Source: Flavobacteriales bacterium BRH_c54
GTDB taxonomy: Bacteria; Bacteroidota; Bacteroidia; Flavobacteriales_E; Vicingaceae
Direction of reading: 5' to 3'
Assembly: GCA_000961845.1 (NCBI GenBank)
Contig: LADZ01000002.1
Location: 1-64,000 of the forward strand
DNA: 64,000 bases
The notes under the pieces were generated by a model. That model saw only the letters and a program-made list of their open reading frames with translations, was not told where the DNA came from and made no database searches. The translations under genes and the position numbers were made by a program. The first letter of the stretch is position 1; every line of letters starts with the position of its first letter. This document shows positions 1,484-61,235 of the stretch, piece by piece.

Positions 1484-3526
1484 TCATATTCTAACACCAA
1501 TTACACATACATCATCCACCTGTTCTAGGTTGCCTTTCCAATCTTCAAAGTACTGTTCTAACATTGCTTTTTGCTCGTTCATAGTTTTGTCTTGAATAGA
1601 AAGCAGTAGATTTTTAAAAGGTTTGTACATTAGTTTTTTACCTTTTTTACCACCAAATTGATCAGCAAAACCATCAGTAAACATATATATAGTATCACCT
1701 TTTTGTAGTTTAATGGTATGTTGAGTAAATGGTTCCGGATTGTCGACCTTACCGATAGGTTGTTTGTTAGGTTTAATTTCTACTAGTTTTTCTTTATCAT
1801 TTGTTTTCACCATATACAGAGCGTTATTAGCTCCGGCATATTGTAATGTAGCTACCGTTTCCGATTCATTTAACTCGGAACTTGGAATTTGAAACGTTAA
1901 ACTACAAAGTGCAATGTCCATTCCATCATTCACCTCTTCTTCACTTTTTTCAAACGTTTCAATTACTAATAACCTCACTTTATCTAAAATTTCAGCGGGA
2001 TTGGTTAGTTTAAATTCTCTTACAGCTCTGTTTAATGCATTGTTACAGACTACGCTTACCATGGCTCCGGGAACTCCATGTCCGGTACAATCGGCAGCAG
2101 CTAAGAAAACAGCCTTTTCTAATGCTTCATTTGTATTTATATTAGAACTTTCCATCCAATAGAAGTCTCCACTTACCACATCTTTTGGTTTATAAAGAAT
2201 AAATCCATTTTCCAAGTTTTTACTTAAAACTTCTTTGGGTGGTAATATGGCTTGTTGTATTCTTCGAGCATAAATAATACTATCCGTTATCTCCTTGTTT
2301 TTATTATCTACAATAATTTTTTGCTGCTCTACTTCAAATTTTTGTTGCTCTATCAATTGTTTTTGTTTGTTGGAGTTTTTTAGCGACTTATAAATAATGA
2401 ATGAAATGATTATTACTGCTAAAAGTACAACTGCCAAAAACACTAAAAATAATTGTTGTCTTTTTTGTTCTGAAGCTGCTACAGCGAGCTCTTTTTCATG
2501 CTCTGCTTGTTCTATAGCTTGTTTTTTTTCAAATTCAAAATTTACTTCTTGGCGAAGAATTTCTTTTTTATTTTCTTCATTAAAAATACTGTCTTTATAT
2601 GCCATGGCTAAGCGTAAGCTTTTTAAAGCTTCTTTATCTTTTCCCATATGTTCATACAAAGTAGTTTGTTTAGAATATGCAGAGTACAAACCATTTAACG
2701 AACCTAACTGTTTAGATAAATCTAATGCTCGTTGAATATATTTTTCAGCTTTTGCATACTTACCTAAAAGAATGTATAAATTTCCTATATTCTGTGATTT
2801 TATTAGAATACCTTCTAAATCGTTTTGTTGTTCACTTATTTCTAACGCTTTAAAATAATAAGTAATGGCTTCTTCATAATTTTCTAAATTTTTATGAATT
2901 ACTCCTATATTTCCTAGATGCCTCGATTGTCCATCAATATTGTTATTTTTAGTGTCAATTTCCAACGCTTTTCCATAATATTCCAACGCTTTATCAAAAT
3001 CTTGAAGATGTTTATATACTACACCAATATTGCCGTAGTGTAATGAGGTTCTTGCTGTGTCACCTCTTTTTAAATCAATTTCTAATGCTTTATTATGGAG
3101 TTCCAATGCTTTTTCAAGGTCATTGGTATTTTTATATAATACTCCCAATCCGGCATACATTACTGCAACTCCATCTAAGTTATTTAGTTCTTCATGAATG
3201 GCTAAAGCATTATAATAGTATTCAATTGCTCCGGGGTAATCCGATTGAATAGACTTACATGTGGCTAAAGTACCGTAAGCTAAAGCTTCTCCTTTTTTCC
3301 ATTTAATTTTTTTACTAAGTTGTAGAGCTTGTTCAAAAATTTTGGTTGCAGAATCTACTTGCCCATTTCTCAGTTTTTTACCTAGTTTTATTAAAGCTTC
3401 AACTTTAGTTGTGTCTTCAGAAGCAGAACTTATATAATTTGATAAAGAATCAAGATTGGACGCCTTAGATTGAAAAGAAAAACACGCAACTAAAAGTAGT
3501 ATATACAGTATGTTACGTGTTTTCAT
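1484..3526 (-). CDS. TPR-repeat SpoIIE-type serine phosphatase
   Basis: A 680-residue protein from the ATG at 3526. A TTG five codons upstream is also in frame, but the ATG gives a clean signal peptide (MKTRNILYILLLVACFSFQS) and sits 28 nt after a leader element that has the same spacing before cmk. Five to seven TPR units (about residues 60-300) are followed by a coiled coil, a membrane span near residues 360-383, a second coiled coil ending in a DSIIYARRIQQAILPP-type linker, and a C-terminal SpoIIE phosphatase. All PP2C-like metal motifs are present: GDFYW, ADCTGHGVPGA, DGMDIALCSL, TDGFADQFGG and the terminal DDVCVIGVRI. It is probably an active membrane-bound phosphatase that relays an envelope signal to a cytoplasmic phosphoprotein. 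It is cotranscribed with or duplicated from the next gene; no kinase or anti-sigma partner is adjacent. Confidence 0.92.
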   Translation of the reverse strand: MKTRNILYILLLVACFSFQSKASNLDSLSNYISSASEDTTKVEALIKLGKKLRNGQVDSATKIFEQALQLSKKIKWKKGEALAYGTLATCKSIQSDYPGAIEYYYNALAIHEELNNLDGVAVMYAGLGVLYKNTNDLEKALELHNKALEIDLKRGDTARTSLHYGNIGVVYKHLQDFDKALEYYGKALEIDTKNNNIDGQSRHLGNIGVIHKNLENYEEAITYYFKALEISEQQNDLEGILIKSQNIGNLYILLGKYAKAEKYIQRALDLSKQLGSLNGLYSAYSKQTTLYEHMGKDKEALKSLRLAMAYKDSIFNEENKKEILRQEVNFEFEKKQAIEQAEHEKELAVAASEQKRQQLFLVFLAVVLLAVIIISFIIYKSLKNSNKQKQLIEQQKFEVEQQKIIVDNKNKEITDSIIYARRIQQAILPPKEVLSKNLENGFILYKPKDVVSGDFYWMESSNINTNEALEKAVFLAAADCTGHGVPGAMVSVVCNNALNRAVREFKLTNPAEILDKVRLLVIETFEKSEEEVNDGMDIALCSLTFQIPSSELNESETVATLQYAGANNALYMVKTNDKEKLVEIKPNKQPIGKVDNPEPFTQHTIKLQKGDTIYMFTDGFADQFGGKKGKKLMYKPFKNLLLSIQDKTMNEQKAMLEQYFEDWKGNLEQVDDVCVIGVRI

Positions 3527-3554
3527 CTGTGTGTTTTTCAATTTTTTGTTATTA

Positions 3555-3616
3555 GTCAGATGTAACTCCCAAGTAATCGTTTTTTTATAAGAACTATTTT
3601 TTCATGGTCGTTTCAT
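3555..3616 (-). repeat. Leader repeat copy 1 (MKRP micro-ORF element)
   Basis: Read on the minus strand, this block begins ATGAAACGACCATGA (encodes MKRP and a stop) and ends GGGAGTTACATCTGAC. The same two end blocks frame the element upstream of cmk at 46123-46186. In both places the final GAC lies exactly 28 nt before the ATG of the next gene. The A-rich middle differs and is 2 nt shorter here, so the second micro-ORF seen in the other copies is broken after three codons. Its function is unknown; it may be a translated leader, an RNA element or a small mobile repeat. Confidence 0.7.
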
Positions 3617-44861: not shown

Positions 44862-45986
44862 ATGAAATTTTTTATTACACTCATTTTTATTATCCTTACT
44901 TTTTGTGAGTCAATAGCACAAGTAGGAGGAGAGAGTGCTTTTAGCTTTCTTAATATTCCTGTATCTGCCAGAACGGGAGCATTGGGAGGGAATGCTATCG
45001 CTATAAAAGATGAGGATCCCAATTTTGCTTTAGATAATCCTTCATTACTTTCGGCAGAAATGAGTAGTGCTCTTTCATTTACGTATTTAAATTACTTTGC
45101 GGATGTTAATTTAGGGCATTTTTCTTATACCCATGATTTTAAAAAGTACGGAACATTTTCCGGAGGTGTGAAATATATCAATTACGGAAATTTTTTAGAA
45201 ACAGACGAAGGAGGAAATGAGTTGGGTTCTTTTTCAGCTTCAGATTATGCTTTTATTTTAGGTTGGGGGAAAAACATAGACACATCTTTTTCTGTTGGAG
45301 CAAACCTAAAACCAATTTATTCCAAATTTTATCAATATAGCTCTTTTGCTATGGCAATGGATTTATCTGCAACGTATCATAATGCAAAAAAACAATTAAC
45401 TACAGCTTTATTAATTAAAAACATTGGACGACAATTTTCTACTTATATTGAAGAAAGAGAAATAGAACCCTTGCCTTTTGAAGTACAATTGGGAATTTCT
45501 AAAAAATTGGCTCATACGCCTATTCGTTTTAATGTTGATTTTATTCATTTAAATAATTGGAATTTAGCTTATAATGATTCTTCTTCGGTAACTAATAGAG
45601 ATAATACGTTAGATGATGAAGCCAGAAAAGAATTAAATAAAACAGGAATGGTAAGTGAATTTTTCAGGCATGTTGTTGTTGGGACAGAGTTTGTGCTTTC
45701 CCCAAGTTTTATGTTGAGATTTGGCTATAATTTTCAACGAAGAGCTGAATTGGCTTTTGATAACAAAGGCGGATTAATTGGATTTAGTTGGGGATTAGGA
45801 TTTAGAATCAAAAAAATTCATGTAAGTTACGGAGGAGCAAGCTATCACTTAGCAGGAACTTCTAACCATTTTACCATTACCACTACCATTTCGGATTATT
45901 ATAAAAAGAGTCAGGTGGTGATTCCAGAAGAAAAAGCTTCAAAAAAATCCCGAAAAAGAAAAAAAGACAAACAAAACGAAGAATGA
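44862..45986 (+). CDS. porQ: PorQ-like type IX secretion outer-membrane protein
   Basis: The 374-residue product (ATG at 44862; the preceding TTG is superfluous) has a signal peptide ending CESIAQ, then the PorQ/PorV-like opening GESAFSFLNIPVSARTGALGG and repeated beta-strands ending in aromatic residues, as in a 14-strand FadL-type barrel. In T9SS, PorQ with PorZ, PorU and PorV forms the attachment complex that fixes sorted proteins to the surface. The lysine-rich C-terminal tail (SKKSRKRKKDKQ) is unusual for a barrel and probably lies in the periplasm. Its stop codon overlaps the start of a leader-repeat copy. Confidence 0.8.
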   Translation: MKFFITLIFIILTFCESIAQVGGESAFSFLNIPVSARTGALGGNAIAIKDEDPNFALDNPSLLSAEMSSALSFTYLNYFADVNLGHFSYTHDFKKYGTFSGGVKYINYGNFLETDEGGNELGSFSASDYAFILGWGKNIDTSFSVGANLKPIYSKFYQYSSFAMAMDLSATYHNAKKQLTTALLIKNIGRQFSTYIEEREIEPLPFEVQLGISKKLAHTPIRFNVDFIHLNNWNLAYNDSSSVTNRDNTLDDEARKELNKTGMVSEFFRHVVVGTEFVLSPSFMLRFGYNFQRRAELAFDNKGGLIGFSWGLGFRIKKIHVSYGGASYHLAGTSNHFTITTTISDYYKKSQVVIPEEKASKKSRKRKKDKQNEE

Positions 45987-46050
45987 AACGACCATGAGTA
46001 AAAAATTCTCACACAAAAGTATGATTATAAAGGGAAACGCAAGTTCGTGA
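45983..46050 (+). repeat. Leader repeat copy 2 with two overlapping micro-ORFs
   Basis: This copy begins ATGAAACGACCATGA (MKRP, then stop) and continues with a second micro-ORF at 45994-46050 (18 codons, starting MSKKFSHKSMII) whose ATG overlaps the first stop as ATGA. Its middle matches copy 3 for 13 codons without indels; after ATTATA it diverges and lacks the GGGAGTTACATCTGAC end block. The first ATG also overlaps the porQ stop. Copies 2 and 3 lie 140 nt apart. Confidence 0.65.
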
Positions 46051-46122
46051 ATACAATTTTAAAAAAATAATAAGGAATGAACAATTCCATGTGTCCGATA
46101 AAAAATAAATAAATATAAACAC

Positions 46123-46202
46123 ATGAAACGACCATGATAAAAAAAATCTCGCACAAGAAAATGATTATATGGGAGTTACATCTGACCGATTTAATAAAAT
46201 AA
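46123..46202 (+). repeat. Leader repeat copy 3 upstream of cmk
   Basis: It begins with the same MKRP micro-ORF (46123-46137). A second one, 22 codons from 46134 to 46202 (MIKKISHKKMII and on), overlaps it by ATGA. The end block GGGAGTTACATCTGAC (46171-46186) is the same as in copy 1, and GAC is 28 nt before the cmk ATG, as it is before the phosphatase ATG at 3526. The fixed spacing favours a role in the leader of the following gene. Confidence 0.7.
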
Positions 46203-46214
46203 AAATATCAACAG

Positions 46215-46904
46215 ATGAAAAAAATTATTATAGCCATTGATGGTTACTCTTCCTGTGGAAAAAGTACATTGGCAAAACAATTGGCTAAAGCACTAAACTA
46301 TATTTATATTGATACGGGAGCAATGTATAGAGCCGTTGCTTTATATGCTCTTCGAAAAGGATATATTGGAGAAGGTTTTTTTGACGAACAAAAATTAATT
46401 GATGATTTGGACAACATTGATGTTTCTTTTTCATTTAATGCAGAAAAAAACAGCTCAGAAACTTGTCTTAATAATGAAAATGTAGAAAAACAAATTAGAG
46501 GCATTGAAGTCTCTAGTTTAGTAAGCAGAATAGCCAAAGTAAAACAGGTACGAACTAAAATGGTAGAATTGCAAAGAAAAATGGGACAGAATAAAGGTTT
46601 GGTAATGGATGGTAGAGATATTGGTTCTGTAGTTTTTCCTGATGCAGAACTGAAAATTTTTATGACAGCCGATTTTGAAGTTAGAGCTCAAAGAAGGTAT
46701 GACGAGTTAAAAGCCAAAGGAGATGATATCTCTTATGATGAGGTGCTGAAAAATATTGTTTCTCGTGATGGCGATGATACCAGCAGAACAGAAAACCCAC
46801 TTATTCAAGCTGAAAATGCTGTTGTGTTAGACAATACACATATCAATCAAGAAGAGCAATTTCAGAATGCGTTGAAATTGGCTCAGCAAAAAATTTCAGC
46901 ATAA
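46215..46904 (+). CDS. cmk: Cytidylate kinase
   Basis: At 229 residues it matches Cmk: P-loop GYSSCGKSTLA (about 9-17), IDTGAMYRAVALYA, GLVMDGRDIGSVVFPDAE and RRYDELKAKG near the LID. It phosphorylates CMP and dCMP. The start ATG is at 46215, after the leader repeat. In many Flavobacteriales cmk stands near porQ, so the pairing here is expected. Confidence 0.95.
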   Translation: MKKIIIAIDGYSSCGKSTLAKQLAKALNYIYIDTGAMYRAVALYALRKGYIGEGFFDEQKLIDDLDNIDVSFSFNAEKNSSETCLNNENVEKQIRGIEVSSLVSRIAKVKQVRTKMVELQRKMGQNKGLVMDGRDIGSVVFPDAELKIFMTADFEVRAQRRYDELKAKGDDISYDEVLKNIVSRDGDDTSRTENPLIQAENAVVLDNTHINQEEQFQNALKLAQQKISA

Positions 46905-61021: not shown

Positions 61022-61038
61022 TCTTTTATATTTTTCTA

Positions 61039-61160
61039 CTTATCTTTTCCCGATTTATCGGGATAGGATTTAGCACCGATTTTCCAATCTCGCTTATGCA
61101 AGACTTATAGTTGGTTGCCAAGGTTTCACAGGGCCTATTCCCTCCACCTTTCTTGATAAA
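61039..61160 (-). promoter_or_regulatory. SAM-I riboswitch
   Basis: On the minus strand the core AAGAAAGGTGGAGGG, GGCCCTGTGAAACCTTGGCAACC and the later GGTGCTAAATCC follow the SAM-I (S-box) order, with TTATC near the 5' end pairing with GATAA at the 3' end to close P1, and a CCCGATTTATCGGG P4-like hairpin. SAM binding stabilises this fold and lets the terminator form, turning off the metH genes. Coordinates are approximate by a few bases. Confidence 0.93.
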
Positions 61161-61235
61161 CACGGAATCCGTGCAGACAATTTTATTTCTAAAGAACGTA
61201 AGTACAAAAATAAGTAAGATTTTAATGCCTTACAA
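61161..61235 (-). promoter_or_regulatory. Promoter and leading hairpin of the SAM-regulated metH operon
   Basis: On the minus strand ATTG (61236-61233) and TATTTTTG (61212-61205), separated by 20 nt, fit the -33/-7 consensus; the start point should be near 61198. Between it and the riboswitch lies CACGGATTCCGTG (61173-61161), a tight 6-bp hairpin with a one-base centre. Confidence 0.6.

Follow-up and report, generated by a model that had tools for sequence, protein, structure and literature searches.

A roughly 90-bp non-autonomous element that inserts immediately before ATGAAA, guided by a hairpin and acting on single-stranded DNA, is probably the source of the repeated leader found upstream of cmk in the window (the whole 64,000-nt stretch of DNA analysed here). 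Whereas most mobile repeats of bacteria either stay clear of genes or disrupt them, this element appears to target the start codon, leaving the protein intact and replacing the 5′ leader. Genomes carry tens of copies, and the genes behind them include core ones such as cmk, purA, lepA, nadA and nadD. Should translation respond to the pairing of the start codon, the element would cause heritable changes of expression across Bacteroidota that are invisible to gene annotation, and pairs of empty and occupied sites make it directly testable.

Copies in the window and their empty sites in congeners

A preliminary description of this DNA reported two elements, at 46123-46186 and on the minus strand at 3616-3555, that have both ends in common and precede unrelated genes, cmk and a TPR-SpoIIE phosphatase gene, and we found the places, the ends and the gene assignments to be correct (Table 1). 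It missed the tandem copy upstream, the pairing between CATCTG and CAGATG, in which the start codon lies, and the copies elsewhere in the genome. The window contains ATGAAACGACC three times, at 3616-3606 (-), 45983 (+) and 46123 (+), where 0.59 occurrences would be expected by chance even with one mismatch, and GGGAGTTACATCTGAC occurs twice, both times exactly. Elsewhere in the window, at 61037-61162 (-), lies a SAM riboswitch (RF00162, E 6.3e-17).

Table 1. Element copies, their paired strands and the neighbouring genes in the window.
Feature	Position	Strand	Remarks
Putative mobile element, copy of 92 nt	46123..46214	+	Abuts the cmk ATG; begins ATGAAACGACC, ends CAG directly before ATGAAA
P1 hairpin, 5′ strand, AAC-GA-CC	46127..46133	+	Partner 46171-46177; covaries with the AACGAGCC/GGCGAGTT and AACATCC/GGATGT types
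P1 hairpin, 3′ strand, GG-GA-GTT	46171..46177	+	Inside the 16-nt end of the preliminary description
P3, 5′ strand, CATCTG, candidate guide	46179..46184	+	Partner 46212-46217
P3, 3′ strand, CAG of the element end plus ATG of the cmk start codon	46212..46217	+	Predicted RNA pairing probability 0.97-0.99
Second tandem copy, degraded	45983..46122	+	Upstream of the cmk copy; missed in the preliminary description
Putative mobile element, copy of 90 nt	3527..3616	-	Abuts the TPR-SpoIIE gene; G004 has a matching copy (L175)
TPR-SpoIIE phosphatase gene	1484..3526	-	PF07228, TPR families
cmk, (d)CMP kinase	46215..46904	+	TIGR00017, E 5.5e-65
porQ, type IX secretion system	44862..45986	+	NF033711; gene before cmk; in the window no element occupies the ATGAAA target at its start

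The strongest evidence for mobility comes from comparing the same sites between the genome of the window (G000) and its congeners. At cmk in G002, GCGAAGA runs directly into ATGAAAAAAATT (longer flanks GACAAACAAAGCGAAGA and ATGAAAAAAATTATT) and the porQ stop overlaps the cmk start (ATGA), whereas in G000 and G004 two tandem units lie between these flanks, exactly at the junction, reading GAAGA, then ATGAAACGACC through to AACAG, then ATGAAAAAAATT. The site is also empty in G001, G003 and G005, so that four congeners read straight to ATGAAA and lack the copy that abuts cmk in the window. Insertion split the ATGA-type overlap of porQ and cmk and left cmk downstream of a hairpin of its own, with the porQ stop codon supplied by the initial ATGA of the upstream copy. 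At porQ the occupancy is reversed, with an empty site in G000 (CGGTTG followed directly by ATGAAATTT at 44862) and occupied sites in G002 and G004 (CGGTTG, ATGAAACGAG through to AACAG, then ATGAAGTTT); taken alone, porQ could equally reflect precise loss in the lineage of the window or gain elsewhere. Because the occupied and empty junctions are seamless at both genes, insertion falls precisely beside a fixed short target, immediately 5′ of ATGAAA and with no other change, where the ATGAAA common to both ends could mask up to 6 nt of duplication. The element itself begins with ATGAAA and thus offers a fresh target, which explains tandem arrays such as the three-unit array with a period of about 91 nt on contig C104 of G003. 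We therefore consider it very likely that the element is mobile and has ATGAAA as its target.

The copy before the SpoIIE gene is common to G000 and G004, and in G002 the upstream region differs; unlike at cmk and porQ, some other copies, at mlaD, nadD and purA, are kept between congeners. The TPR-SpoIIE-like genes themselves form very large families, with at least 40 matches in single genomes of about 3 Mb (G002, G008, G017 and G021). Separately, the upstream tandem copy contains an extra insert of about 49 nt (about 46036-46084, AACGCAAGTTCGTGAATAC to GGAATGAACAA) that is not in G004 and whose GTTC..GAAC ends point to a small insertion of another kind.

Covarying pairings P1 and P3

Pattern searches of the whole 2.9-Mb assembly for the two ends gave 25 and 22 places, of which the best were paired, and alignment of 23 copies yielded a common plan and a covariance model. 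The 5′ part of the plan reads ATGA-AAC-GA-CC-ATGA, followed by an apical part with CTCACACArGrrAATGATTAT and then GG-GA-GTT; the 3′ part consists of A or C, CATNTGAC, an A-rich stretch, CAN′ and the ATGAA of the gene, the element thus starting with ATGAAA and ending with CAN′ directly 5′ of ATGAAA. In the subterminal hairpin P1, AAC pairs with GTT and CC with GG around tandem G.A. P1 covaries, in that a second type is AACGAGCC/GGCGAGTT and A-T pairs take the place of the G.A in G159 and G254, both complete genomes (AACATCC/GGATGT), a change from GA to AU in RNA terms. In P3, CATNTG at the hairpin foot pairs with CAN′ATG, whose ATG is the downstream gene’s own start codon. The N:N′ pair occurs in all four Watson-Crick forms and is Watson-Crick in 27 of 28 parsed copies of the own genome (8.7 when shuffled; a further 28 hits were left out of this parsing for format reasons or as weak hits), in 45/47 copies of congeners (19.9 shuffled) and in 67/79 of named Bacteroidota (25.4 shuffled). 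This covariation supports CATNTG as a candidate guide, and the putative second pairing, of the same CAT with the 5′ ATG end, is nearly invariant. Over the whole structure the covariation score was 0.228 in 88 sequences outside model building, compared with 0.079 for shuffled and at most 0.055 for slid alignments, the first value being biased upward as the alignment was fitted to the model.

This structure also accounts for two features that had first drawn attention. The 28 nt between element end and ATG hold for cmk (46215) and the SpoIIE gene (3526), but they are the remainder of the P3 hairpin, and the distance from CATNTG to ATG is not fixed, being mostly 24-31 nt across copies. The two conserved ends are likewise real, but they are parts of the covarying P1/P3 structure. 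Minimal copies (L142, L140 and L145) consist of P1 and P3 alone, and the apical part is therefore dispensable. Another proposal, that a translated MKRP micro-ORF or a promoter block is conserved here, has scarcely any probability left. Nine exact copies of ATGAAACGACCATGA are present in the own genome, but MKRP starts with ACG, ATA or GTG in variants, the common AACGAGCC type has no stop, start and stop are lost in many copies, and a scan for sigma-70-type promoters, which does not cover those of Bacteroidota, gave no signal in the sense direction.

Some copies carry in their P3 loop a member of a second small insertion family of about 50 nt, ACGAGCTATAGCGAG(AG)TTCATGAGTACATTA to ATGAACGAA, as at L112 (G000), L144 (G002) and L180 (G004); at one gene G004 has this insertion but G000 and G002 lack it (L057, L128).

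Distribution and choice of target

The preliminary description had proposed to search the genome and its relatives for the two ends, adding that a random mobile repeat would be indicated by many copies without constant orientation or distance to genes. The covariance model found 54 places in the own genome, corresponding to about 50 copies, nearly all in one orientation and ending at a start codon, and 10-32 copies in each of five congeners. Copies are thus numerous, yet both orientation and distance are maintained, since insertion is aimed at the start codon. Across four congeneric genomes, the own genome included, copy numbers were 54, 27, 32 and 28, and the subfamilies were genome-specific. 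The model also detected the element in 24 of 60 relatives and in at least 28 of 296 Bacteroidota genomes, a lower bound with 13 candidates scored per genome. A strict pattern applied to one genome per species gave at least 117 contig stretches, nearly all from Bacteroidota, with Marinilabiliaceae, Prevotellaceae, Porphyromonas, Paludibacter, Dysgonamonadaceae and Flavobacteriales among the matches listed. Blastn against plasmids and phages gave no element match, and on viral contigs eight of nine pattern matches were chance occurrences inside one coding sequence; the ninth (L491) is a genuine minimal copy on a phage contig, ahead of a small phage gene (MKNFIAKGKVITVIAAAAILAGDLVKIGGGG). Neither own nor distant copies matched Rfam at the gathering threshold or at E ≤ 5, and a literature search that covered few subscription journals yielded no paper on the element or on any start-codon-targeting repeat of Bacteroidota.

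The full copies number about 190. In 157 of them the element runs up to the start of an ORF of 60 codons or more; another 20 closely precede a same-strand gene with ATGAAA in its 5′ UTR (mnmG, panB and others), and 6 face an opposite gene; such wrong-way copies include L227, L236 and L212. Element-free intergenic ATGAAA sequences at the same loci divide into 71 at a start, 58 same-strand and 39 opposite, so that the ratio of start to opposite is 157:6 with the element and 71:39 without it (p=3e-12), the size of the preference being approximate as simple ORF calls were used. This comparison favours a preference for real start codons beyond the ATGAAA sequence itself, which would not be expected of a simple DNA target and is due either to selection removing other insertions or to a mechanism that prefers translated starts, and it leaves room for a translation-linked role.

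Such a role is central to an alternative in which the repeat is a cis-regulatory RNA leader that spread, with P3 hiding the start codon and copies being kept for translational regulation; release would come from a factor or from an alternative pairing of the element’s 5′ AUG-A-AAC with GUU-A-CAU. The cis-acting leader of the preliminary description survives to the extent that the element lies in the 5′ UTR in sense orientation with a conserved structure that includes the start codon. The strong preference for real start codons fits this alternative, as do the predicted probability of P3 in RNA (0.84-1.0), the conserved ACACAGGRRAUGAUUA stretch in the P1 loop, and the orthologous copies of G000 and G004, which differ by 1.6% compared with 3.8% in the flank just upstream and about 13% at fourfold sites. 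Between G000 and G002, however, conservation is not raised (10.8% vs 8.3%), for the extended AUG/CAU pairing the predicted probability is low (0.00-0.16), and the lack of an Rfam family also speaks against it. Furthermore, the element is mobile and tandem, its presence at cmk and porQ varies among sister species, and the downstream genes are unrelated, their functions having nothing in common. On balance we consider a regulatory leader of this kind unlikely.

Mobility through RNA, with a transcript inserted or copied at the AUGAAA of mRNAs by reverse transcription or retrohoming, would account for both the sense orientation and the start-codon preference. The structure is also RNA-like (tandem G.A, GU pairs), and no DNA transposase tracks with the element. 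The wrong-way copies suit DNA targeting better, and we regard an RNA route as improbable. A broader reading, which we hold to be doubtful, would combine these aspects: a phylum-wide element that finds start codons through a built-in guide, served by a non-Y1 enzyme or linked to RNA, would equip genes with a portable leader concealing the start codon, and its mobility would rewire the translation of core genes.

Candidate mechanism and relation to known repeats

Insertion of the element recalls that of IS200/IS605 transposons, where, as also at REP ends, base pairing by a guide immediately 5′ of the hairpin foot determines the cleavage sites (PMC6006769). Like IS608, ISDra2 and their non-autonomous derivatives, the element has a subterminal hairpin and a guide at its foot that could pair with left and right cleavage sites, and it inserts next to a short target of fixed sequence without duplicating anything else. 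Unlike them, it would use one hairpin for both ends and TTTCAT/ATGAAA as target, its guide-junction pairing comprises 6 bp, and no TnpA gene lies inside or tracks with it. With REPs (RAYT/TnpA-REP; GTAG and CGTC families) it has in common that it is small, multicopy, hairpin-based, non-autonomous and sometimes tandem, but REPs lie mostly between or after genes, whereas the element sits at start codons in one orientation; it has no GTAG/GGAG tag of the GTAG type, its foot being ATGAAAC / GTTMCAT in the main types, and the genome’s Y1 genes go with another repeat. The Flavo-1 RNA motif of Rfam is also widespread, in Flavobacteriaceae, with many copies and a function that is unknown (PMC9723704), but the element matches no Rfam model, and Flavo-1 hits are reported without preferred orientation.

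By analogy with these systems, we favour a hairpin-guided mechanism acting on a single strand and give it about an even chance; insertion behaviour and pairing are observed, and the strand and the class of enzyme that would be involved are inferred. On the complementary strand the order would be TTTCAT, the left junction, NTG, a linker of 20-odd nt, the CAN′ATG guide, the hairpin and TTTCAT at the right junction. The guide’s ATG would have two partners, CAT at the left junction (P3) and CAT at the right end (an extension of P1). A trans-acting enzyme would make its cut after TTTCAT at either end, and the element would be pasted behind a TTTCAT of single-stranded DNA, so that the gene would stay intact behind a new 5′ leader that holds its start codon in the P3 pairing. 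Single-strand Y1 elements are marked by a bias to the lagging-strand template and by a single-stranded circular intermediate; in G254, 15 copies are co-directional and 15 head-on with respect to a fork direction taken from sampled GC skew.

Our search for a matching enzyme centred on Y1 transposases (PF01797). Y1 genes do not track with the element: model hits near or flanking them were at chance level, and PF01797 was not found in the element-bearing genomes G242 (10 copies) and G258 (8 copies), both about 100% complete, nor in G020. A long, autonomous version was not found either, every full 3′ end in G003 belonging to a short complete copy. Because no cognate Y1 transposase was found, we do not file the element under IS200/IS605 or REPs despite its similar working. 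Recombination alone, by gene conversion or template switching at common ATGAAA sequences with no dedicated enzyme, could use the ATGAAA at both ends as microhomology, and CGTC REPs also have no known transposase (PMC3733652). Nevertheless, that tens of insertions are precise and keep the covarying guide pairing intact implies repeated selection on the end structure, and we judge recombination alone to be highly improbable.

Individual Y1 genes were rejected as partners for separate reasons. The IS200-like gene at L238 is preceded by the element since its start is another ATGAAA target. At L407 (contig C32 of G250), two tandem copies face a Y1 gene of the YILNQEEHH kind from about 100 nt behind it, at an ATGAAT that is not a gene start, and this proximity lies within the chance expectation. 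The RAYT-like Y1 genes have a different repeat of their own (TTTGTAGCTACAAGCTACAAAC) in G000, G002 and G004. These genes, located on C69 of G000, C33 of G002, C2 of G004 and C148 of G003, are 182 aa long, have their own ends (TTTGTAGCTRCAAGCTACAAAC) and lie at differing places (L333, L335, L336 and L337).
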